Positions 1-13,418 of a stretch of 35,520 nucleotides of DNA are shown here, in pieces. Both the position numbers and the translations under genes were made by a program. The DNA comes from Synergistales bacterium 54_24. GTDB lineage: Bacteria; Synergistota; Synergistia; Synergistales; Thermosynergistaceae. The stretch is taken from positions 1-35,520 of the forward strand of contig LGFQ01000008.1 of NCBI GenBank assembly GCA_001508935.1, given 5' to 3'. Each line of letters begins with the position of its first letter. Position 1 is the stretch's first letter. The notes beneath the pieces were generated by a model. It ran no database searches, was not told the DNA's origin, and was given only the letters and a program-made list of their open reading frames with translations.

Positions 1-900
1 ATGAACCAAACAGAAAAAGTGGTCGGCGTGGAAGAGATGGAAAAAGACCCGACAGGGCGACCTTATGCCTATGCCCACCCAGAGTTCAAGACCCTTCCCA
101 CGATAGGCTCCGGAGGGCCAGCCTACATAGACCGCGGTCCGGACCCAGAAGCAACCCTTGCCTGCAAACCCGACCTGCTTTTTGTAACATACATGCAAGG
201 GCAAAACGCAGAAAAACTACAGAACAAGCTGGGCGTTCCCGTAGTGGTGTTATCCTACGGCGATTTGGGGACCTTTGACGAGACAGTTTTCGATTCCTTC
301 AGGCTCATCGGACGAATAACGGAATGCGACGAGAGAGCGAACATCCTCGTCGAATTTTTTACGCAGATGAAGAAAGAGCTGTCGGACCGGGCTATACCCC
401 TGGGGAGGTCACAGCCCAAGACCTACATAGGCGGAATTGGACACAGGGGGGCCCATGGCATCGATAGCACCCTTAAGTCCTATCCTCCTTTTGAGTTTTT
501 ATCTGTTAAAAGCGTTGTAGAGGGGCTAAAAGGCGACCATATCTTCATAGACAGGGAAAAACTCTTGGAGTGGGATCCGGACGTGATTTTCATAGACGGC
601 GGCGGAAGCCATCTCGTCCAGGCAGATATAGAAAAAAATCCGCACTTTTATGAACACCTGTCGGCGTTTAAACAGGGGAGAGTTTATTTGACTCTCCCCT
701 ATAACCACTACACCACAAACTTGGGCACCTGTTTTGCCAACGCATATTATATAGGCTCCGTCTTATATCCGGAGGCGTTCAAAGATATCGATCCGGAGAA
801 AAAGGCCGATGACATATACGCCTTTCTCTTGGGTAAAGGTGTATATGATGAGATGAGAAGGGATTTCGGTGGTTACGGTCCCTGGCCTCCACTGCATTGA
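1..900 (+). CDS. Iron/siderophore ABC transporter substrate-binding protein, N-terminus missing
   Basis: This is the extracytoplasmic solute receptor of an iron(III), siderophore or corrinoid ABC importer (Peripla_BP_2/TroA-like fold). The visible 299 residues contain the family pattern: a VVGV strand near residue 7, a LPTIG and GGP turn around residues 32-40, then KPDLLFVT at 57-64 and the second lobe with DPDVIFIDGGG near 192-202. Family members usually run 350-380 residues and begin with a signal peptide and a first lobe strand that are absent here. The ATG at base 1 is therefore probably an internal methionine, and the gene begins upstream of the window. Permease and ATPase genes would be expected on that side, because the 3' end is closed by a strong hairpin. 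The ligand cannot be told from sequence. Confidence 0.8.
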   Translation: MNQTEKVVGVEEMEKDPTGRPYAYAHPEFKTLPTIGSGGPAYIDRGPDPEATLACKPDLLFVTYMQGQNAEKLQNKLGVPVVVLSYGDLGTFDETVFDSFRLIGRITECDERANILVEFFTQMKKELSDRAIPLGRSQPKTYIGGIGHRGAHGIDSTLKSYPPFEFLSVKSVVEGLKGDHIFIDREKLLEWDPDVIFIDGGGSHLVQADIEKNPHFYEHLSAFKQGRVYLTLPYNHYTTNLGTCFANAYYIGSVLYPEAFKDIDPEKKADDIYAFLLGKGVYDEMRRDFGGYGPWPPLH

Positions 901-937
901 AGCCTTGTCGCACAACTTGATAAAATCTCAAGCTTGC

Positions 938-986
938 AATATTATTGCGGCCAATAAGTGATTCGCTGGCCGCAATAATATTTTTT
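938..986 (+). terminator. Rho-independent terminator after the ABC binding protein
   Basis: A perfect 15-bp inverted repeat (938-952 with 968-982, 15-base loop) runs straight into a T tract ending at 986, about 40 bases after the stop codon. An outer 9-bp inverted repeat (925-933 with 1001-1009) encloses it, so the full structure is a nested hairpin. It also lies downstream of the convergent flavoprotein gene and may serve both strands. Confidence 0.75.
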
Positions 987-1082
987 CCACAACCACCCAG
1001 GCTTGAGATGTTCAGTTACCGTCCAATCGCCGATAGTCAAATCCTTCCCGGGCAGACGATGACCCGCCTTATGTTCAATCCC

Positions 1083-2528
1083 TTAACCGGCGATGCTTTT
1101 CTGATAATTAAAGAATAGCGCGAGGTAGGGATCGTCCACAGCGTTTTGCGAAGGACAATGAGCGAAGTAGTGACGCAAGATCTCTGAGACGCTCTCTTTT
1201 GCCGCAATAATGTCCAAAAAACGCTCGCTCAAGTTGATTACGGGATCGCCTTCGATCACAGCTTGAAAACCGATTATTTGTCCTTCTTTTAAACCAGGAG
1301 CTTTTTCTTTCGAGATAACGACCTTCCAATAACCGTCTTTCCCCAAAGGCATCGCTTCATCCCTCGTCCTAACAGGGAGGACGATCGTCTTTACGGAAAT
1401 CCCTGCCTTGCTCGCCGCCTCTTCGCTCCATCCTATGCTGGCCCAATGCAGGTCAAAGAAAGAGCTCACTCCCCATATGGTAACGGGTGGAAGCTCTGCG
1501 GGCATGCCCATGATGTTGGATGCCGCCACCAGTCCCTGCCTCATGGCGAGAGTGCCTATGAGAGGCAATATCGGCCTGCCAGTAGGAGCATCAACGACCT
1601 GCACGGCATCGCCCACAGCGTAGACATCTGGATGAGACGTCCTCATGTGGGAGTCGACCACGATTCCCCTCTCCACTTTGATCCCACAAGCTTTAGCCAA
1701 TGCCACGTTGGGACGCACGCCTGTGGCGAAGAGCATGCCATCGGCCTCGATAGTCGAGCCATCGGATAATGCCACGCCTTCGGGCGTTACGTCAGTCACG
1801 CTAACGCCGATGTAGGCTTTAACGCCGCGCTCAAGCGCACGCTTTTCAATCCAAGATGCCATATCCGCATCCAAAGCCACGCTCAAATGCGGTAACACTT
1901 CGACCACATAGACCTGAAGCCCGCGATCATGGAGGGCTTCTGCCGTTTCAAGTCCAATGGCACCGCTTCCGACTACAACCACGCTTTTAGCACGAGAGGC
2001 AAATTCATCAAGTCTTCGAGCGTCATCGGCTCCCCTGATGACATAGACGTTGGGCGCCAGACGGGATTTCTCCACAAGTTCATTGCCATACATAACCCAC
2101 GTGACTTTGCCATCAGATGCTGCAGGCGACGAGCCTTCCCGCAAAACCCCTGATACGGGAGGAATCCACGGGACGGCGCCGGTGGCTAAGATGAGTTTTT
2201 CAAAGGAAATCTCGACCTGCCCATCGGATCCCTCCACATAAGCTTTTTTGGAAGCAACATCAAGTTCTTTCACGACACCATGTATGACATCCTTCGGCAT
2301 GTCTTTGGGCAGGCGCCCGCCTTTAGAAAGGTCCACCACTATCGCCTCAGGGCCTTGGGGCACAAGCTTCCTGCCAACCCCATATGGCAAGCTGCAGATG
2401 ACCGTTGGTTCCTCATTCATAACTATCTTCACTTTGTTCTCACCCATCGTCCGCAAAACCATATAGGAGATGCGTCCACCTGGCCCTCCACCGATGATGA
2501 GCGCTTTCGTCGAAAGACTCCTATCCAC
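1083..2528 (-). CDS. CoA-disulfide reductase/NADH oxidase-like flavoprotein
   Basis: This is a 481-residue FAD- and NAD(P)H-dependent disulfide oxidoreductase of the class that includes CoA-disulfide reductase and NADH oxidase. The FAD-binding GGGPGG lies at residues 13-18 and the pyridine-nucleotide site GSGAIGLE near 187-194. The second FAD contact is VYAVGDA around 304-310. A single cysteine in CSLPYG at residue 45 sits where CoA-disulfide reductases carry their redox-active cysteine. The start is a GTG with AGGAGGAAGG four bases upstream, preceded by a good promoter at 2588-2616. It stands alone. Likely roles are reduction of CoA disulfide, persulfide or O2 in an anaerobe. The C-terminal dimerisation domain has an unusual CPSQ segment, so the exact substrate is uncertain. 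Confidence 0.8.
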   Translation of the reverse strand: MDRSLSTKALIIGGGPGGRISYMVLRTMGENKVKIVMNEEPTVICSLPYGVGRKLVPQGPEAIVVDLSKGGRLPKDMPKDVIHGVVKELDVASKKAYVEGSDGQVEISFEKLILATGAVPWIPPVSGVLREGSSPAASDGKVTWVMYGNELVEKSRLAPNVYVIRGADDARRLDEFASRAKSVVVVGSGAIGLETAEALHDRGLQVYVVEVLPHLSVALDADMASWIEKRALERGVKAYIGVSVTDVTPEGVALSDGSTIEADGMLFATGVRPNVALAKACGIKVERGIVVDSHMRTSHPDVYAVGDAVQVVDAPTGRPILPLIGTLAMRQGLVAASNIMGMPAELPPVTIWGVSSFFDLHWASIGWSEEAASKAGISVKTIVLPVRTRDEAMPLGKDGYWKVVISKEKAPGLKEGQIIGFQAVIEGDPVINLSERFLDIIAAKESVSEILRHYFAHCPSQNAVDDPYLALFFNYQKSIAG

Positions 2529-2587
2529 GCATCCTTCCTCCTTTTCTCCTTTTAGCCAACTTCATATAGCCTCGTTATTTTGGGCAC

Positions 2588-2616
2588 ATTATATACCCTC
2601 CAAGGGTAACATGCAA
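2588..2616 (-). promoter_or_regulatory. Sigma70-type promoter for the flavoprotein gene
   Basis: Reading the minus strand, TTGCAT (2611-2616) is followed after 17 bases by a perfect TATAAT (2588-2593). The box lies about 60 bases before the GTG start at 2528. Confidence 0.7.
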
Positions 2617-2740
2617 GCTACTCCACAAAAAGTTCTTTAGTAGCGAAGGTACCGATAACTGTTGTGCTGGTTTCTGATCGAAAGCCGATCGGTTTCATTG
2701 CATGTTCCAGAGCATGGCCGGTGCCGTTAGGGAAAGGGAG

Positions 2741-3076
2741 ATGCCGCGCGGAGACGGAACAGGACCTGCGGGCTTTGGTCCCATGACTGGTCGAGCTGCC
2801 GGTTATTGTGCCGGTTACGGTGTTCCAGGATACGCAAACGCCCGCGCCTGGCCTGGAAGGGGTTACTTTGGCTGGGGAAGAGGCTTCTGGGGAGGTGGCC
2901 GCAGATGGTGGGGGCGCTATCTCTACGCCCCGATGCCAGCGTATCCTTATGCCGCACAACAAGATCCACGGCAGGAGCAGGATATCTTGAGGCAGGAAGC
3001 AGCAGAACTTCGCCGCGCACTCGACAATATACAGAAACGCCTCGCTGAAATCGAAGGAGAAAGCAGTCAGGCTTAG
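2741..3076 (+). CDS. DUF5320 domain protein
   Basis: This is a small 111-residue protein of the DUF5320 family. Its opening MPRGDGTGPAGFGPMTG and the following YCAGY are the family hallmark, which is why I start at 2741 (GGGAAAGGGAG just upstream) and not at the in-frame ATG at 2702. A glycine/tryptophan/tyrosine-rich middle (about residues 20-70) leads into a charged C-terminal helix (about 78-107, EQDILRQEAAELRRALDNI) that should form a coiled coil. The function is unknown. In anaerobes such genes commonly lie beside Mrp/NBP35 ATPases and NifX/NifB-like iron-molybdenum proteins, and here an Mrp gene follows. A role linked to Fe-S or metal-cofactor handling is inference from context only. 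Confidence 0.8.
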   Translation: MPRGDGTGPAGFGPMTGRAAGYCAGYGVPGYANARAWPGRGYFGWGRGFWGGGRRWWGRYLYAPMPAYPYAAQQDPRQEQDILRQEAAELRRALDNIQKRLAEIEGESSQA

Positions 3077-3100
3077 GAAGCAGCAGAGAAAATACACAAT

Positions 3101-3127
3101 CGAGAGGTCGGGTACCCCGACCTCTCG
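3101..3127 (+). terminator. GC-rich hairpin after the DUF5320 gene
   Basis: A perfect 12-bp stem (3101-3112 with 3116-3127) closes on a three-base loop 25 bases after the DUF5320 stop. No T tract follows it, so it is either a weak terminator or an mRNA-stabilising hairpin. Confidence 0.5.
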
Positions 3128-3267
3128 CATCATCAAGCATGCAGCTCCGCACCGCACTATAGTGGTTCCCTACACTCCTCTTTTTTGCTTCCTCTCTACT
3201 GCTCTTGGTGCTGGCCATCAAATGCCTCATTTCAGTCACCTCACTCGCAGCTTCGGCATATTTGATA

Positions 3268-3296
3268 TTGATATTCAATATTTATAATAGTATAAT
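3268..3296 (+). promoter_or_regulatory. Promoter upstream of the Mrp gene
   Basis: TTGATA (3268-3273) and a perfect TATAAT (3291-3296) are separated by 17 bases in an AT-rich patch. A second, overlapping pair (TTGATA 3262-3267 and TATAAT 3283-3288, 15-base spacing) is less well spaced. Transcription from here would give a leader of about 185 bases before the Mrp start at 3489. Confidence 0.65.
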
Positions 3297-3488
3297 ACCT
3301 CTCGTTGTTCGGCCCAGCAAACGAGGCGGGAGTTTCTGTCTTTCCTTTTTTGCAGAGAATAATTTGCCCTATATAGGATGTGAGGGGGCTATTCTGTCAG
3401 CGGCATATGTGTTGCGCAAGCTCTACCATATGACCCACGCGGATCTGGGTCTTGCATCAGTCAGCTTGAAATGAAGGAGGAGTTTTTG
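3297..3488 (+). other. Long 5' leader of the Mrp gene, possibly structured
   Basis: The stretch 3077-3488 has no convincing gene. It holds the hairpin at 3101-3127, the promoter at 3268-3296 and this leader. In the leader, CTCGTT (3301-3306) can pair with AACGAG (3320-3325), and GACCCA (3432-3437) with TGGGTC (3446-3451). I do not recognise a known riboswitch in it. Confidence 0.35.
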
Positions 3489-4274
3489 ATGAACGAAACC
3501 CCCGACAATGCGCAATTCGCCAAAGCCAAAAAGGAAGGTATAGATCGTGTGTTCGCTATAGGAAGCGGCAAGGGCGGTGTAGGGAAAAGCTCCGTCACCG
3601 CCCTGCTCGCCGTAGCCTTGCAGAGACAAGGTTTTAAGGTAGGTATTCTGGACGCAGACCTCACAGGGCCATCCATCCCAAAACTTTTAGGGGTGGATGG
3701 CATGCCCAAGGCCGCTTCTTCTGGCTTGATCCCTCCTGCCTCACCGAGATTTGGGATCCGCGTAATGTCTATCAACCTCCTCCTGGATGATCCGTACAAA
3801 CCCGTGATATGGAGGGGGCCCCTCATAACAAACGTCATAAAACAATTCTGGGATGATGTAACGTGGGGGGAGGTAGACTATCTTTTGGTGGACTTGCCGC
3901 CAGGCACTTCCGATGCTCCGCTTACGGTCATGCAGATGCTCCCCCTGGATGGATTTCTGGCGGTCACATCTCCCCAAGCCCTTTCTGCTATGGTGGTACT
4001 TAAAGCCGTAAACATGGCCAATATGTTATCCGTACCGGTTTTGGGCGCGCTGGAGAACATGAGCTATGCTATATGCCCTCACTGCCATCAGATATGGGAA
4101 CCCTTCGGTTTGAGCCACGTAGAAGAGTTAAGGGAGCATGGAGTCTCTATATTGGCTAAGCTGCCCATAGATCCCTCGATCGCCAAGCTTGGAGATGAGG
4201 GCCGTCTCGAGGAATACGAAGACACAGAGGTTTTACAAACTCTCCTGACGACACTGCCGAAGAAGATAGCGTAA
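3489..4274 (+). CDS. Mrp/NBP35-family P-loop iron-sulfur carrier ATPase
   Basis: This is a 261-residue cytosolic ATPase of the Mrp/NBP35 (ApbC) group, which binds and delivers [4Fe-4S] clusters to apoproteins. The deviant Walker A GSGKGGVGKSS lies at residues 25-35, the switch motif DADLTGPS at 55-62, DLPPGTSDAP at 135-144, and the cluster-bridging pair CPHC at 196-199. The start at 3489 is chosen because AAGGAGGAG lies a few bases before it; the upstream in-frame ATG at 3471 overlaps that ribosome site. It follows the DUF5320 gene but has its own promoter. The N-terminal DUF59 domain seen in some Mrp proteins is absent, as is usual for anaerobic homologues. Confidence 0.92.
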   Translation: MNETPDNAQFAKAKKEGIDRVFAIGSGKGGVGKSSVTALLAVALQRQGFKVGILDADLTGPSIPKLLGVDGMPKAASSGLIPPASPRFGIRVMSINLLLDDPYKPVIWRGPLITNVIKQFWDDVTWGEVDYLLVDLPPGTSDAPLTVMQMLPLDGFLAVTSPQALSAMVVLKAVNMANMLSVPVLGALENMSYAICPHCHQIWEPFGLSHVEELREHGVSILAKLPIDPSIAKLGDEGRLEEYEDTEVLQTLLTTLPKKIA

Positions 4275-6281: not shown

Positions 6282-6545
6282 ACCTCAAATACGGCATATA
6301 GATTGCCCTTGCCAAACTGAAGACGACACGATATTAACGCCCAACCTGAAAATCGTCAACGTGGCGCCGACTATCTCGACATATCTATGGCAGCAAATTT
6401 CGGAGCGCGTTTTGGATTCGGCCGAACCAAAAAGCGACTCCTTCTATTCAACAGGCAACGTCGAGTGTAAAATACATTCAAATGCCGAAATATTCCGGCC
6501 AGGTCGCGGTGGGAGAATGTGCCTTAGGCTCAAGAGGTGGTAGAT

Positions 6546-8621
6546 GTGCGGATTGAAGAGCATCCGATCCTTAAGGTGGAGCGAAAAAGACCGTTTGAGT
6601 TTGCGTTCTCAGGCGAAAAACTCCAAGCCTACGAGGGGGAGACCATAGCAGCGGCGCTCTTTGCGAACGGCATTCGCATCTTCGGCAACCACCAGAAGGA
6701 CGGTTCGCCTCAAGGGATCTTCTGCGCCAACAGCCAGTGCTCCCAGTGCCTCGTGATAGCCGACGGAAAGCCGCTCAAGGCTTGCATGACCGCGGTGCGG
6801 CCGGGGATGCAGGTCGAGCCCGTCTGCGGCTTACCCGAACTTCCCAAAGTGGATTCCGTGCCGCCCATGCGCGAGATCGAGGAAGTCGAAGTTCAAGTCC
6901 TCATCATAGGCGGAGGGCCGGCCGGGCTTTCAGCTGCGATTGAGCTCGGCAGGCGCGGCATAAAGACCCTCATCGTAGAAGATAAAAGCGCCCTCGGGGG
7001 GAAGCTCGTCCTCCAGACCCACCGGTTCTTCGGCTCAAGCGACGCAGTTTACGCCGGCACGCGAGGCATAGACATAGCCGCCAAATTGGAGGAGAAGGTG
7101 CGCGCTTTCCCCTCGGTCGAGGTGTGGCTCAACTCCTCCGCCTTGGCCGTATTCAGCGACCACAAGGTGGGCATCCTGCGCAACGGCAAAGACTACGTCT
7201 TGGTCGAGCCAGAGGTGCTTTTGGTATCGACTGGAGCCAGAGAGAGGTCCCTCGTGTTCCGCGGGAATACCCTGCCAGGCGTCTATGGCGCCGGGGCGTT
7301 CCAGACCTTGGTGAACCGCGATCTCGTGAAGGCAGCTGAGCGGCTCTTTATCGTGGGAGGGGGAAACGTCGGCCTCATCGCCGGTTACCACGCCATCCAG
7401 GCCGGGATTCAGGTGGCAGGCTTGGCCGAAGCCTTACCTGAATGCGGCGGCTACAAGGTCCATCGCGACAAGCTCGCACGCCTTGGCGTCCCCATCTACA
7501 CCTCGCACACCGTCATTTCCGCAAACGGCAAGGATCAGGTAGAGTCTGTGACCATCGCCCAGGTGGACGAAAAATTCAACCCCATCTCGGGGACGGAGAA
7601 GAGCTTCGCCTGCGACACGCTGCTGGTCGCAGTTGGCCTGGACCCGGTGGACGAATTCTACCGGAAGGCTTTGGAGTTCGGGATAACAGCCTTAGCCGCC
7701 GGCGATGCCAAAGAGGTCGCCGAGGCCTCTGCCGCCATCATATCCGGCGAGATCGCCGGCCTAAAGGTAGCTTCCGCCCTGGGGCTTGAAGAGGCCGAAG
7801 CCCCGAAGGGGTTGGAGAGGATGGCAGAAGTTTTGGCCTCCAAGCCTGGGCTGTGCCTGCCGAAAGGCACCCCACACCGCGAGGAGGGAGTCTTTCCAGT
7901 GATCCACTGCCGCCAAGAGATCCCCTGCAACCCTTGCGCCTCGGCATGCCCGCGAGGGCTCATACGCATCGACCCAGAGGACATCCGAAAGGTTCCAGAG
8001 TTCGTCGAGGGCGACAAAAGCTGCATCGGCTGCGAGCGGTGCGTCGTGGTATGCCCTGGGCTGGCTATCGCACTTGTGGACTACCGCAAGGACTCGGAAT
8101 GGCCAACTGTCACTCTGCCCTACGAACTCTCGAGGGAAAGCCTAAACGTCGGGGAGATCGTCACGGCGGTGGACGAAGAAGGCAATCCGCTGGGAGAGGT
8201 AGAGGTGACGGAGGTAAAGGCAATCCCAAAAAACGACCGGACTCTGCTCATTGAGCTCAAAAGCCCAAGGGTTTTAGCTGAAGAGATAGCCGGCCTTCGG
8301 GTGCAGGCACCAGAGGTATCCGCACCGCTTCCTGAAGCCACACTTAGGCTTGCGGACGACGAGATCGCCTGCCGTTGCGAACGGGTGACGGTTGGGGAGA
8401 TCAGGAAGCTTATACGAGAGGGGTGTCGGGACATGAACGAGATCAAGGCCGCGACGCGAGCCGGGATGGGACCATGCGGCGGGAAGGTTTGCGGCCCCCT
8501 CATAAAGCGCCTTTTTCTCGAGGAAAGCATTTCGCTTGAAAGCGTCACGGACTACGTCCGGCGCCCGCTCTTCTTGGAGGTGCCCCTGAGCGCATTCGCG
8601 GGGGCGAGCGACGAGGAATGA
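6546..8621 (+). CDS. Multi-cluster Fe-S/FAD oxidoreductase alpha subunit (HcnAB/sarcosine oxidase alpha-like)
   Basis: This 691-residue subunit fuses four redox modules. An N-terminal [2Fe-2S] domain has Cys60, 65, 68 and 80. A two-dinucleotide flavoprotein follows, with GGGPAG at 122-127 and GGGNVG at 271-276. Next is a ferredoxin-like part with Cys455, 461, 464, 468 and a classic CIGCERCVVVCP at 493-504. A C-terminal BFD-like [2Fe-2S] domain has CRC at 609-611 and Cys644 and 649. Relatives are the alpha subunits of dye-linked proline or hydroxyproline dehydrogenases, sarcosine oxidase and hydrogen cyanide synthase HcnA/HcnB. It should accept electrons from the DAO subunit encoded next (4-base ATGA overlap). 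I prefer the GTG at 6546 (AAGAGGTGG five bases before) to the GTG at 6537. The true acceptor (NAD, ferredoxin or quinone) is unknown. Confidence 0.85.
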   Translation: MRIEEHPILKVERKRPFEFAFSGEKLQAYEGETIAAALFANGIRIFGNHQKDGSPQGIFCANSQCSQCLVIADGKPLKACMTAVRPGMQVEPVCGLPELPKVDSVPPMREIEEVEVQVLIIGGGPAGLSAAIELGRRGIKTLIVEDKSALGGKLVLQTHRFFGSSDAVYAGTRGIDIAAKLEEKVRAFPSVEVWLNSSALAVFSDHKVGILRNGKDYVLVEPEVLLVSTGARERSLVFRGNTLPGVYGAGAFQTLVNRDLVKAAERLFIVGGGNVGLIAGYHAIQAGIQVAGLAEALPECGGYKVHRDKLARLGVPIYTSHTVISANGKDQVESVTIAQVDEKFNPISGTEKSFACDTLLVAVGLDPVDEFYRKALEFGITALAAGDAKEVAEASAAIISGEIAGLKVASALGLEEAEAPKGLERMAEVLASKPGLCLPKGTPHREEGVFPVIHCRQEIPCNPCASACPRGLIRIDPEDIRKVPEFVEGDKSCIGCERCVVVCPGLAIALVDYRKDSEWPTVTLPYELSRESLNVGEIVTAVDEEGNPLGEVEVTEVKAIPKNDRTLLIELKSPRVLAEEIAGLRVQAPEVSAPLPEATLRLADDEIACRCERVTVGEIRKLIREGCRDMNEIKAATRAGMGPCGGKVCGPLIKRLFLEESISLESVTDYVRRPLFLEVPLSAFAGASDEE

Positions 8622-9778
8622 AGTACAAGAGGCACTACGACGTCGTCATCATCGGGGCAGGGAGCGTAGGGATGCCTGCGGCATTTGCCATGGCCAAGGT
8701 TGGTCTAAGCGTGCTCGTCTTGGACAGGTTTGCAAGCGTAGGACAGGGGTCGAACAAAGCGGCCATCGGCGGTGTGCGCGCCACCCACTCAGACCCGGCA
8801 AAGATAAGGCTATGCCTGCGCTCGATCGAGATCATCTCCACGTGGCGGGAGACATACGGCCACGATGTGGAGTGGCGACCGGGTGGGTATCTATTCGTCG
8901 CCTACACCCCTCGCGAGGAGAGGACCATGAAGGACCTCCTCGAAATCCAGCATCGCTACGGGCTTAACATCGATTGGCATGACGCGGAAGGGCTTTTGGA
9001 GATCGTGCCCGACTTAAACCAGCAAGGGTTGATCGGTGGAACCTATTCGCCCGACGATGGGCACTGTTCGCCTCTGCTTTTAAACCGCGCCTTCTACGAC
9101 GAGGCACGCCGCCACGGGGCTGAATTCCACCTGAACGAGCGCGTAGTGGGATTTATAAAGGTCGGGGACAGAGTGCGGGCAGTGCGCACGGATAAGGGCG
9201 ATTACACCGCCGGCGTGGTGGTCAACGCCGCAGGCCCGTGGGCGCGCGAGGTCGGCGCAATGCTCGACTTCAAACATCCGGTGCGACCCGACTGCCACGA
9301 GGCCGGGGTGAGCGAGCCGGTGGCCCACTTCCTCGACCCGATGGTGGTGGACATCCGCCCAGCTCCAGGGTCAGCCAATCTCTACTTTCACCAGCTCGCC
9401 AGCGGCCAATTTACCTTCAACTTCACCCCCGATCCCCTCATCTGGGGCGAGGACAAGCGAGAGACGAGCGCCTTCCTGCCGCAGGTAGCCAGGCGAATGA
9501 TCAAGATTATGCCGAGGCTTTCAAACCTGCGGGTGCGAAGGCAATGGCGCGGCCTTTACCCCATGACGCCGGATGGCTCCCCGCTCGTGGGCTGGAGCCA
9601 TGAAGTGGAAGGATATCTCATGGCGATAGGGATGTGCGGGCAAGGGGTGATGCTCGGACCAGGCCTCGGAGAACTCCTCTCGCGCATGGTGACCTGCAGA
9701 CTCACACCTGAAGATCAAGAGACGCTCGAAATCCTCTCTCCATACCGCGCCTTTGCCCGCCAGGAGGCACTCCGGTAG
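8618..9778 (+). CDS. DAO-family FAD-dependent amino acid dehydrogenase beta subunit
   Basis: This is a 386-residue flavoprotein of the D-amino-acid oxidase/sarcosine oxidase beta/HcnC family. The FAD-binding IIGAGSVG sits at 11-18 and the usual acidic end of strand two at LVLDRF (33-38). NAAGPWAREV near 205-214 and the C-terminal GMCGQGVMLGPGLGEL near 345-360 complete the fold. The gene overlaps the Fe-S subunit by four bases, which implies coupled translation and a heteromeric complex. This subunit would oxidise the C-N bond of an amino or imino acid and pass electrons to the Fe-S partner. Candidates are D-proline, hydroxyproline, sarcosine or another secondary amine. The sequence does not settle which. 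No signal peptide is visible, so it should act in the cytosol or at the inner membrane face. Confidence 0.85.
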   Translation: MKYKRHYDVVIIGAGSVGMPAAFAMAKVGLSVLVLDRFASVGQGSNKAAIGGVRATHSDPAKIRLCLRSIEIISTWRETYGHDVEWRPGGYLFVAYTPREERTMKDLLEIQHRYGLNIDWHDAEGLLEIVPDLNQQGLIGGTYSPDDGHCSPLLLNRAFYDEARRHGAEFHLNERVVGFIKVGDRVRAVRTDKGDYTAGVVVNAAGPWAREVGAMLDFKHPVRPDCHEAGVSEPVAHFLDPMVVDIRPAPGSANLYFHQLASGQFTFNFTPDPLIWGEDKRETSAFLPQVARRMIKIMPRLSNLRVRRQWRGLYPMTPDGSPLVGWSHEVEGYLMAIGMCGQGVMLGPGLGELLSRMVTCRLTPEDQETLEILSPYRAFARQEALR

Positions 9779-9818
9779 GCAGCATACACAAAGGGCAAAC
9801 CACACGCGCCCGGTGAGC

Positions 9819-9846
9819 TTGACATTGCCATCTGTCTTACTAAAAT
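9819..9846 (+). promoter_or_regulatory. Internal promoter before the second DAO gene
   Basis: A perfect TTGACA (9819-9824) and TAAAAT (9841-9846) are spaced by 16 bases in the only sizeable gap (105 bases) of the redox cluster. The second DAO gene and the OCD gene can therefore be expressed independently of the Fe-S subunit. Confidence 0.65.
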
Positions 9847-9883
9847 AATCCCAAAACAAATGCTTAAGGAAGGAACTTGGGAC

Positions 9884-11020
9884 ATGATCGTCGATGTAGC
9901 GATAATAGGTGGAGGCGTTCACGGCTGTTCCATAGCCTATCACTTGGCCAAAAAGGGCGTGCGCTGCGCCCTTTTCGAGAGGGGTTATCTATCCTCCGGG
10001 GCGAGCGGCAGGAGCGCGGCCGGGGCCAGGCACCAGTTCGGCACGGAGGTGAACTGCCGTTTGGCCATATACAACCTCGAGCATCTGGCCTCTCTAAAAG
10101 AGGAATTGGACCCTCCCTTTCCCCTCGAATTTGAACAATCGGGATATCTCTGGATCACGTATAGCGAGGCGCAGCTCCGGCAGCTCGAAAAAAATGTGTC
10201 GCTGCAAAATTCTTTGGGCATCCCATCGTCCATCCTCTCGCCCGAAGAAATAAAGGAGGTGGCTCCCGCCATCGACGTGCGCAGCATGTTGGGGGCGAGC
10301 TGGTGTCCAAAGGATGGGCACGTAAATCCCCATACGCTGACCTTCGCCTACGCCCACGCCGCAAAGCGCCTCGGCGTTGAAATCCACGCCGAGACGCCGA
10401 TTACAGGCCTTCGGCGCTGGAAGGACAGGGTGAGGGGGGTGCAAACCGCCACTGGCGATTGCCACGCTGAAGCTGTAATCTGCGCAGCGGGGCCGTGGAG
10501 CGCACATATAGCCTCATGGGTGGGACTCGACGTTCCGATAACGCCCGAAAGGCACCAGCTCCTGGTAACCGAGCCTGTGGAGCGCATAAGGCACCCCTTC
10601 GTGCTGTGCATGGACGACGGCAGCTACTGGAAGCAGTGTCCAAATGGGACGTTCATATTAGGATGGGGAAACCCCTTAGACATAAAGGAGATCAGCGACG
10701 AAAGCTCCTGGGAATTCCTGCACGAGGCGTCCAAGGGGGTGCTCTCGAAGATGCCCTCCCTGGCGGGCGTCAGAGTTGTGCGGCAGTGGGCGGGCACTTA
10801 TGACGTCACGCCTGACTCGCAAGCCGTAGTGGGGGCTACCCCTGTGGAGGGCTTTTTCTTGGACTGCGGATGGAGCGGCCATGGCCTGCAATTTGCCCCA
10901 TCCATAGGGCGAATCATGGCTGAAATCGTCTGCGGCGAAGAGCCGTTCATAGACGTCTCTCCCTTTCGCTACAGCCGCTTCGAGGAGGGCGACCTCTTCT
11001 TCGAGCCGGCCTGCATTTAA
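9884..11020 (+). CDS. Second DAO-family FAD-dependent oxidoreductase
   Basis: This is a 378-residue paralogue of the preceding DAO subunit. The FAD site IIGGGVHG is at residues 7-14, followed by LFERGYLSSGASGRSAAG (30-47). AAGPWSAHIA lies near 205-214 and a C-terminal GWSGHGLQFAPSIGRI near 338-353. The ATG at 9884 is chosen over the one at 9860 because AAGGAAGGA lies just before it and family proteins start immediately before the FAD strand. It has its own promoter and is followed after 20 bases by the OCD-family gene. It should oxidise an amino or imino acid, perhaps using the same Fe-S partner with different specificity, or act as a pair with OCD. The exact substrate is unknown. Confidence 0.83.
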   Translation: MIVDVAIIGGGVHGCSIAYHLAKKGVRCALFERGYLSSGASGRSAAGARHQFGTEVNCRLAIYNLEHLASLKEELDPPFPLEFEQSGYLWITYSEAQLRQLEKNVSLQNSLGIPSSILSPEEIKEVAPAIDVRSMLGASWCPKDGHVNPHTLTFAYAHAAKRLGVEIHAETPITGLRRWKDRVRGVQTATGDCHAEAVICAAGPWSAHIASWVGLDVPITPERHQLLVTEPVERIRHPFVLCMDDGSYWKQCPNGTFILGWGNPLDIKEISDESSWEFLHEASKGVLSKMPSLAGVRVVRQWAGTYDVTPDSQAVVGATPVEGFFLDCGWSGHGLQFAPSIGRIMAEIVCGEEPFIDVSPFRYSRFEEGDLFFEPACI

Positions 11021-11040
11021 AGAGCAAGGAGGTATGCCGA

Positions 11041-12030
11041 GTGCTTCTGCTCAAGAAAGAAGAGATGCAAAGGGTCTATTCTATGAAGGAGGCCGTAGAG
11101 GCCGTGAAACTCGCCTTCAAGCTCTTCTCCGAAGGGAAGGCAACTGTGCCCTTGAGGACCAACATCGACGTGCCGAAAGGCGCTGGAGGAGCGCTCTTTA
11201 TGCCAGCCTACGTCGAGGAGACAGAGTCTCTCGGAGTAAAAATCGTATCCGTATTTCCCAACAACGTGAAGGTCGGACGCCCGGCGGTCCCCGCTACAAT
11301 GGTGCTCTTAGAGCCACAGACCGGAGAGGTATGCGCGATCATGGACGGTACGTATCTCACGCAGCTTCGCACTGGGGCGGCTGCGGGGGCAGCCACAGAC
11401 CTCCTATCCCGCAAAGATGCATCGGTGGGCGCCATAATCGGAGCTGGAGGGCAGGCCCTCTACCAGCTCGAGGCCATGTTGACCGTCAGAGAGCTGAAAG
11501 AGATAAGGATCTTCGACGTCGACGCCGCCAGAGCTCAAAGCCTCGTCCGAAGCGCAGGAGAGAGATGGGGCAAAAAGGGCGTGAGAATTGCGCTTGCAAG
11601 GTCGCCAGAAGAGGCCGTAGATGGCGCCGACGTGATAACCACAGTCACCACCTCTAAAGCGCCGGTCTTCCCCGGAGCCAAAGTCAAGGACGGCGCTCAT
11701 GTCAACGGTATAGGTTCATATACGCCTCAAATGCAGGAGCTCCCCCCAGATCTCCTCAAGAGGGCCGACAGGGTGTTCGTGGATTCGCGGGAAGCGGTGT
11801 TATCGGAGGCGGGCGACTTCATCATACCCATCAAAGAAGGGCTTTTTGACGCCTCTATCATCTCAGGGGAGATAGGAGAGCTGGTGACTGCCCACACAGA
11901 GGGGCGCAGCGGCGATGGAGAGATAACGGTTTTCAAGACGGTGGGGATAGGAGTCCAGGACGTGGTCACTGCCAGGGAGATCTACAAGAGAGCTCTTGAA
12001 GCGAAGGTGGGCTTGGAGGTCTCCCTGTGA
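11041..12030 (+). CDS. Ornithine cyclodeaminase/mu-crystallin family protein
   Basis: This is a 329-residue Rossmann enzyme of the OCD/mu-crystallin family, which includes ornithine cyclodeaminase, archaeal alanine dehydrogenase, ketimine reductase and pyrroline-2-carboxylate reductase. Visible features are Arg39 in PLRTNIDVP, the conserved Lys67 in LGVKIVS, Arg110 in QLRTGAAAG and the NAD(P)-binding IIGAGGQA at 132-139. The GTG start has AAGGAGG eight bases before it. It lies 20 bases after a DAO gene. Family knowledge suggests that it reduces the cyclic imine made by such an oxidase or cyclises ornithine to proline. In this context imine reduction is my preferred reading, but the sequence alone cannot separate these activities. 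Confidence 0.83.
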   Translation: MLLLKKEEMQRVYSMKEAVEAVKLAFKLFSEGKATVPLRTNIDVPKGAGGALFMPAYVEETESLGVKIVSVFPNNVKVGRPAVPATMVLLEPQTGEVCAIMDGTYLTQLRTGAAAGAATDLLSRKDASVGAIIGAGGQALYQLEAMLTVRELKEIRIFDVDAARAQSLVRSAGERWGKKGVRIALARSPEEAVDGADVITTVTTSKAPVFPGAKVKDGAHVNGIGSYTPQMQELPPDLLKRADRVFVDSREAVLSEAGDFIIPIKEGLFDASIISGEIGELVTAHTEGRSGDGEITVFKTVGIGVQDVVTAREIYKRALEAKVGLEVSL

Positions 12031-12049
12031 AAAAAGGACATAAAGGTGA

Positions 12050-12406
12050 GGCAAATTCGCCGACCACTTTCAAATTTCTCGAAGATCTCCTAAAACCACA
12101 GAGGAGCGGATAGGCGAGACGCTCGACATCTATAGCCTGGTAGCGTATGACTGCGCTTGGCTCGCCGCCCTCTCCGCGCTGTGCGCACAATCCGGCTACG
12201 GCGAGGCGATAAAGGTCGCACTTCCTCACGTGGCCTACAACTACTACGGCGTCAGCGGCTGGACCGAGCTCGACGAGCTCGGCGACAGAAAGGCACTTAA
12301 CGTCGACTTCTTCGCCGTAAAAGACGTCGAAGGCAAGCCCTCTTGGGTCAAGCTCTTCGAGTACGACGCAGCCACGGGAAGCCTCTCTGAAGCATCCTCA
12401 AAATAG
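12050..12406 (+). pseudogene. 5'-truncated remnant of a branched-chain amino-acid ABC binding protein
   Basis: An open frame of 118 codons with no usable start runs from a stop at 12047-12049 to TAG at 12404-12406. Its last about 95 codons read like the C-terminal lobe of a LivJ/Peripla_BP_6 receptor. They include DIYSLVAYDCAWLAALSAL, then YNYYGVSGWTELDELGDR, then WVKLFEYDAATGSL. The first two thirds of a normal receptor are missing, and the OCD gene lies directly upstream. A frame change near 12093 is possible: the +1 frame upstream reads TFKFLEDLLK, which would join sensibly to TEERIGETLDIYS. The old gene's hairpin (12413-12447) is still there. I read it as a decayed transporter gene, with transport of this cluster's substrate now encoded elsewhere or lost. 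Confidence 0.75.
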
Positions 12407-12412
12407 GCAGCC

Positions 12413-12447
12413 CATAGCCCTGCGCTGGATTGCAGCGCAGGGCTATG
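12413..12447 (+). terminator. Strong hairpin after the transporter remnant
   Basis: A perfect 15-bp stem (12413-12427 with 12433-12447) with a five-base loop starts seven bases after the remnant's stop. The trailing TCTCCTT is only moderately T-rich. It probably ends transcription of the redox cluster and may also limit read-through from the convergent minus-strand genes. Confidence 0.65.
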
Positions 12448-12498
12448 TCTCCTTCGGGAAAGCCGGGGCGGTTCACTGAGTAACTTTGTGCCAAGTAA

Positions 12499-13122
12499 CT
12501 ATAAATAATTCAAGTGCGTGGCGGCCATTTCCCTAAAATATCCCTTTATGTGCTCCCAGTTCCATGGTTTGAGCATCACGGGATCTGGTTCTCGGTCGGC
12601 ATCGTCAAAGAAAACCAAACTCTTCAAGATATGATACCTGCTGTAGTTTGCCTGTCGATATTTCTTTTCAAACAACTCCCATAAGGATTCCATCGGGTAA
12701 ATTTGACAAACGAAGTAAAGGTCCACAAAGTCTTTTTTGCTTCCCCTACTACTGATGGCAGCGATCTTCATCACTGCAATGTCTCGCGTGTCAGCGACCT
12801 TCAGGCCTTCCAGATCCTCGGTGGGAAAAAGAAGCTGATAGGGATACCTCAAAAAAGAGACCTTCGTCTCGGCGAGCACCCCGTGCAAAGTGTCTTGAGC
12901 CTCAGATAAAACCTTAAATTGCTCTGTGGCAATAAGGCTATCTCTCAGGGTTGTCGTCTCAAACTGTCCTTGGCAAAAAAAATCCAGGTCCCCCGAAATC
13001 CTGTGTCCCAAGTGAAGGGCAAGGCCTGTCCCTCCGGCCAGATAAAAGTTCCGCATCGTTTCAATGCCTTTTAAAAGTTCCAGAGCGGACTTTCCACCTC
13101 GCGGTAATACGTCGATAAACAC
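12499..13122 (-). CDS. AbiEii/AbiGii-type nucleotidyltransferase (toxin-like)
   Basis: This is a 207-residue protein of the AbiEii/MenA nucleotidyltransferase superfamily, the toxin side of type IV-like toxin-antitoxin and abortive-infection pairs. The core motif is clear: YLAGGTGLAL (27-36) then GHRISGDLDFF (39-49), with the metal-binding acidic residues in DLDF. The second conserved block DTRDIAVMKIAAISSRGSKK and KDFVDLY lies around residues 111-136. It starts with GTG at 13122, inside the end of the upstream DUF6922 gene (52-base overlap), so translation of the two is probably coupled. Family enzymes transfer nucleotides to tRNA or other targets. Whether this one is toxic, active or a domesticated housekeeping variant cannot be seen. 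Confidence 0.82.
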   Translation of the reverse strand: MFIDVLPRGGKSALELLKGIETMRNFYLAGGTGLALHLGHRISGDLDFFCQGQFETTTLRDSLIATEQFKVLSEAQDTLHGVLAETKVSFLRYPYQLLFPTEDLEGLKVADTRDIAVMKIAAISSRGSKKDFVDLYFVCQIYPMESLWELFEKKYRQANYSRYHILKSLVFFDDADREPDPVMLKPWNWEHIKGYFREMAATHLNYL

Positions 13123-13418
13123 CTTATCTCTTCGTCCTCCAGACCGAAAATCAACTGCCAGAACCTAACTGTTTTCTTAGAGAGGCGCCGACTATCTCGT
13201 ACTACTCCTTCGATAGCCTCCATGGGGTAAGTGGCGAGCACCCATCTTATGGCCGCATCGTCTCCCATCTCCAGCAGCCTTTCAATTATGAACGAGGCGT
13301 TTCGTTGCACATCTAATTTTTCTGGCTGAACATCCCAAAAGAAAGGATAAAATCCTTTCGGTAAAGTTTTGGCCAAGACTTTCTCCACCGTTGTCCTTTT
13401 TGGCGATACGAGAGCCAT
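13071..13418 (-). CDS. DUF6922-like protein, probable antitoxin partner
   Basis: This is a 115-residue protein with the pattern of DUF6922: GFYPFFWDVQPEKLD (22-36), then FIIERLLEMGDD (43-54), then LSKKTVRFWQLIFGL (79-93). Such genes regularly precede AbiEii-type nucleotidyltransferases and are taken as their antitoxin or regulator. Here the next gene begins 52 bases before this one ends. The ATG at 13418 lies only nine bases after a perfect TATAAT, so the mRNA should have almost no leader, and I see no ribosome-binding site. The C-terminus (LSTYYREVESPLWNF) is encoded in the overlap. Function is assigned by context and family association only. Confidence 0.72.
   Translation of the reverse strand: MALVSPKRTTVEKVLAKTLPKGFYPFFWDVQPEKLDVQRNASFIIERLLEMGDDAAIRWVLATYPMEAIEGVVRDSRRLSKKTVRFWQLIFGLEDEEIRCLSTYYREVESPLWNF

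Follow-up and report, generated by a model that had tools for sequence, protein, structure and literature searches.

The sequence that follows an ornithine cyclodeaminase/mu-crystallin family (OCD) gene in Synergistales bacterium 54_24 is very probably what remains of a gene for a LivJ-type periplasmic binding protein that became a pseudogene recently, as judged by comparison with intact orthologues. Relative to these, the copy in the window (the whole stretch of 35,520 nucleotides analysed here, contig LGFQ01000008.1) has lost its start and carries two deletions and one frameshift. In addition, livG, livF, livH and livM are absent behind it and present in the four genomes that retain the receptor (G001, G041, G046 and G050). 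Transporter decay at this locus is ordinary gene decay; it offers a datable snapshot of transporter loss, in which the enzymes are kept, the importer is gone and a hairpin outlives the genes that it once separated. The OCD gene and the three redox genes preceding it are intact:

6537–8621, + strand: Fer2_4/Pyr_redox_2/Fer4/BFD fusion flavoprotein, sarcosine-oxidase-alpha-like (Pfam, NCBIfam; 91% amino acid identity to the G001 orthologue)
8618–9778, + strand: DAO-family FAD oxidoreductase 1 (Pfam, comparison with G001)
9860–11020, + strand: DAO-family FAD oxidoreductase 2, soxB-like (Pfam, NCBIfam, comparison with G001)
11041–12030, + strand: OCD gene (Pfam E 1.9e-74; NF006379 above cut-off)

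From 6480 to 12454, the window is colinear with contig C221 of G001, a genome of the same genus, at about 90–91% DNA identity. Positions 1–4264, with Peripla_BP_2, pyridine nucleotide-disulphide oxidoreductase and ParA/NUBPL-like genes, have no DNA match in that genome.

The receptor remnant and its intact orthologues

The retained C-terminal part of the receptor is the following:

12104–12406, + strand: C-terminal end of the LivJ-type receptor pseudogene, its last 100 codons (309–408) with the stop codon, 96% identical to G001

Alignment with the G001 receptor places codons 309–408 at 12104–12403, within a frame (12050–12406) that the original prediction described as open, startless and equivalent to the last third of the receptor. 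Reading of the window bears this out: 118 uninterrupted codons end in a TAG stop, a TGA stands immediately 5′ (12047–12049), no plausible start codon is present in the frame, and its sole in-frame ATG, GTG or TTG is a GTG at 12230, which would give 58 codons. The receptor motifs that had been quoted, LDELGDR among them, are found in the translation. However, the first ~14 of the 118 codons mostly read a retained N-terminal island (12047–12080) out of the receptor frame, which itself begins only at about 12091/12104.

A protein search with the frame, proposed as a check on the family, gave a divided outcome. The fragment itself stays below the Pfam cut-off (ANF_receptor, E 0.068, 12.6 bits against a cut-off of 25.4), whereas the intact G001 orthologue scores above cut-off for both ANF_receptor (E 2.8e-30, 106.0 bits) and Peripla_BP_6 (E 2.7e-26, 93.5 bits). 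A search of solved structures with the fragment returned no match; for the intact orthologue, the nearest solved chain is 3td9_A, a branched-chain amino acid binding protein (E 6e-11). Identification of the receptor thus relies on the orthologues, because the fragment is sub-threshold in Pfam and lacks a structure match. In keeping with LivJ/LivK-type (HAAT family) binding proteins, the intact orthologue is matched by both of these Pfam families and by 3td9_A, and its operon also encodes two ATPases and two permeases, but the window copy differs in retaining only codons 66–77 and about 301–408, in a startless and frameshifted form; as codons 1–65 and 78–300 are missing, it has no signal peptide and does not keep two complete lobes. 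The best match of the NCBIfam LivJ-type model to the intact copies (E 1.7e-6) is far below cut-off and, by these comparisons, the intact receptors are a divergent branch even among LivJ-type proteins.

Among 60 relatives, the fragment was found in G001 (contig C221, 96% identity over 100 amino acids) and in G041, G046 and G050, which belong to another family of the same order (80–83%), and these genomes together support the assignment as a LivJ-type remnant. A wider search at E 1e-70 recovered only the same genomes, i.e. a high-similarity receptor in 4 of the 183 genomes of the order. In all four the receptor frame is intact, stop-free and 408–409 codons long (408 in G001). The orthology with G001 extends to gene context, since its intact receptor lies directly 3′ of the orthologous OCD gene.

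Lesions and timing of the decay

The lesions were mapped by BLAST and alignment against locus L009 (G001 C221):

12046–12047, + strand: deletion junction 1, loss of receptor codons 1–65 together with the start region (BLAST break; window 12046 corresponds to L009 12746, window 12047 to L009 12537)
12047–12080, + strand: retained N-terminal island, receptor codons 66–77 (SEANLPITFKFL in G001), 88% DNA identity to L009 12504–12537
12080–12081, + strand: deletion junction 2, receptor codons 78–300 gone (669 bp, in frame; window 12081 corresponds to L009 11834)
12091–12101, + strand: frameshift around codons 304–307, with 1 bp fewer than in G001 (alignment)

The frameshift suspected near 12093 is therefore real, with 1 bp missing relative to G001, but the single deletion that had been envisaged is in fact two large ones, between which an island of 12 codons was left. 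This island carries two amino acid substitutions, L70S and I72T, at positions where the four intact receptors do not vary.

Compared with G001, 4 of the codon differences within the 100 retained codons are nonsynonymous and 19 are synonymous, and the dN/dS of the fragment (0.057–0.060) is not above that of the intact neighbours (0.075–0.142; about 0.12–0.14 for the OCD gene against G001). With the other family as outgroup, D340Y is the only change clearly derived in the window, one further change being undecided. A receptor free of constraint over the entire branch would be expected to show ~27–46 nonsynonymous changes, and a rough Poisson bound based on one or two changes limits the unconstrained time to roughly 10–25% of the branch at most. 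The few nonsynonymous changes and the low dN/dS therefore indicate that constraint held until recently; on this measure the loss of the importer is recent, as had been proposed.

Probable loss of livGFHM and alternative readings

In G001, the redox genes, OCD, receptor, livG, livF, livH and livM follow one another on one strand, and the OCD-livJ-livG-livF-livH-livM order is kept in G041, G046 and G050; the comparison of relatives that had been suggested thus revealed a full receptor and transporter genes behind the OCD gene. The window genome is a draft of 152 contigs and 93% complete, and the absence of livGFHM applies to its assembled part. With the G001 proteins as queries, no orthologue of livG (best match 38% identity) or livH (27%) was found in the assembled genome, which retains seven other Peripla_BP_6 receptors. 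More broadly, L009 1–11458, from livG through aromatic-biosynthesis genes, has no counterpart there apart from short repeats or matches. Just beyond the remnant, colinearity changes from one G001 contig to another:

12454–12455, unstranded: breakpoint, colinear to the left with G001 C221 (livJ–livG) and to the right (from 13013) with G001 C76
12499–13122, − strand: AbiEii-like nucleotidyltransferase gene, adjoining the breakpoint, outside the importer (Pfam E 8.2e-13)
13071–13418, − strand: DUF6922 gene, putative partner of the AbiEii gene, outside the importer (Pfam E 6.4e-17)

No G001 sequence matches the window between about 12455 and 13013; from 13013 onwards the window follows C76 to about 34637. 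On either side of the breakpoint the window is colinear with its G001 contig in the same orientation, and the two sides are equally diverged (about 91%). The orientation is as expected for a single large deletion joining C221:11459 to C76:77259, on two contigs that are not joined in G001, and the pattern is consistent with the loss of livGFHM and the neighbouring region by a single such event ending about 12455.

The flanks in G001 have their own features. At L009:460–8039, a complete-looking aromatic amino acid (shikimate) cluster stands beside the importer, and the window genome lacks a counterpart of it; a chorismate synthase was found neither there nor in G041 and G050. On the C76 side (L044), DUF6922 is still recognisable, the AbiEii gene matches over its first 37 codons only, and large frames resembling type III CRISPR-Cas genes begin at this place. 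A large minus-strand cluster in G001 (L044:5347–12598) resembles type III CRISPR-Cas (Cmr/Csm-like), as judged from translations only.

Since the locus unites sequences from two different G001 contigs and livGFHM might sit in the unassembled part of the draft, the living genome might possess an intact receptor and importer, with the contig collapsed or misjoined at 12046–12100 or chimeric at 12455. Such an artefact is improbable, as three separate lesions and the junction would all have to be false, the sides of the junction share the orientation of the G001 contigs and are equally diverged from them, and no second copy of the receptor, livG or livH occurs elsewhere in the assembly. Even less credible, to the point of being nearly dismissed, is a short stand-alone protein still made from the C-terminal part of the receptor. 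The 118-codon open frame and the strong conservation would suit it, a dN/dS of 0.06 being what continued selection would also leave, but the GTG at 12230 is its only start, it has no signal peptide, its 5′ end is frameshifted, and the short form, whose presence in relatives would have spoken for it, occurs in none of them. The remnant has no match elsewhere in the genome, and at E 1e-70 none of the genome's other Peripla_BP_6 receptors matches the intact orthologue; an origin of the remnant as an insertion or a duplicate of another receptor of the genome was therefore rejected.

Under the preferred reading, a pseudogene left behind by importer loss, the ancestor would have carried OCD-livJ-hairpin-livG-livF-livH-livM as a single operon. 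In the lineage of the window, livGFHM and the neighbouring region would have been removed, most simply by the large deletion ending about 12455, and the receptor would have been broken by its two internal deletions and the 1-bp frameshift. The OCD and redox genes are still intact, and the livJ–livG stem-loop persists, probably as the 3′ end of a shortened transcript.

The livJ–livG stem-loop and the OCD-linked importer

The hairpin was described as intact in the original prediction, and its stem is also found in the four relatives:

12413–12447, + strand: hairpin with a 15-bp stem, the conserved livJ–livG intergenic stem-loop (folds and covariation, five loci)

In all four relatives the stem-loop sits between livJ and livG, and it is thus conserved across five genomes. 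Over the five loci, 8 of the 15 stem pairs show double-sided change with pairing kept; a comparison of the window with G001 only shows outer stem pairs that have changed on both sides with pairing preserved. In Clostridia, stem-loops behind binding-protein genes are reported to set the excess of receptor over transporter (PMC9045158). Like these internal stem-loops, the livJ–livG hairpin has a long GC-rich stem and a weak U tract and lies between binding-protein and transporter genes, but the window copy differs in that the downstream transporter genes are gone. By analogy with the reported cases, the hairpin may originally have set receptor excess over transporter, and the surviving copy probably now forms the 3′ end of the shortened transcript. 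An origin as a mere terminator of the OCD operon was rejected because the stem lies between livJ and livG in the four relatives.

The idea that the cluster once carried its own importer is supported, with a refinement. An importer did lie beside the OCD gene, but the link to the redox genes is weaker: in the stretches of G041, G046 and G050 examined, these genes do not adjoin the OCD-liv unit. By gene order, the importer accompanies OCD in both families, whereas the redox genes adjoin it only within the genus of the window, and ‘OCD-linked substrate importer’ is for this reason a stronger description than ‘redox-cluster substrate importer’. As suggested by the protein families, an amino-acid-type substrate would be bound in the periplasm by the receptor and imported by LivGFHM for the OCD enzyme. 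More tentatively, and with considerable doubt, OCD-livJGFHM might be dedicated to taking up and converting an uncommon amino or imino acid, the species of the window having switched to a substrate produced internally or imported otherwise while keeping the enzymes. In G041, OCD is preceded by a divergently oriented YheO-like regulator. The pairing of the OCD gene with a Liv-type importer is conserved as a unit in two families of the order, which provides a clue to the substrate.
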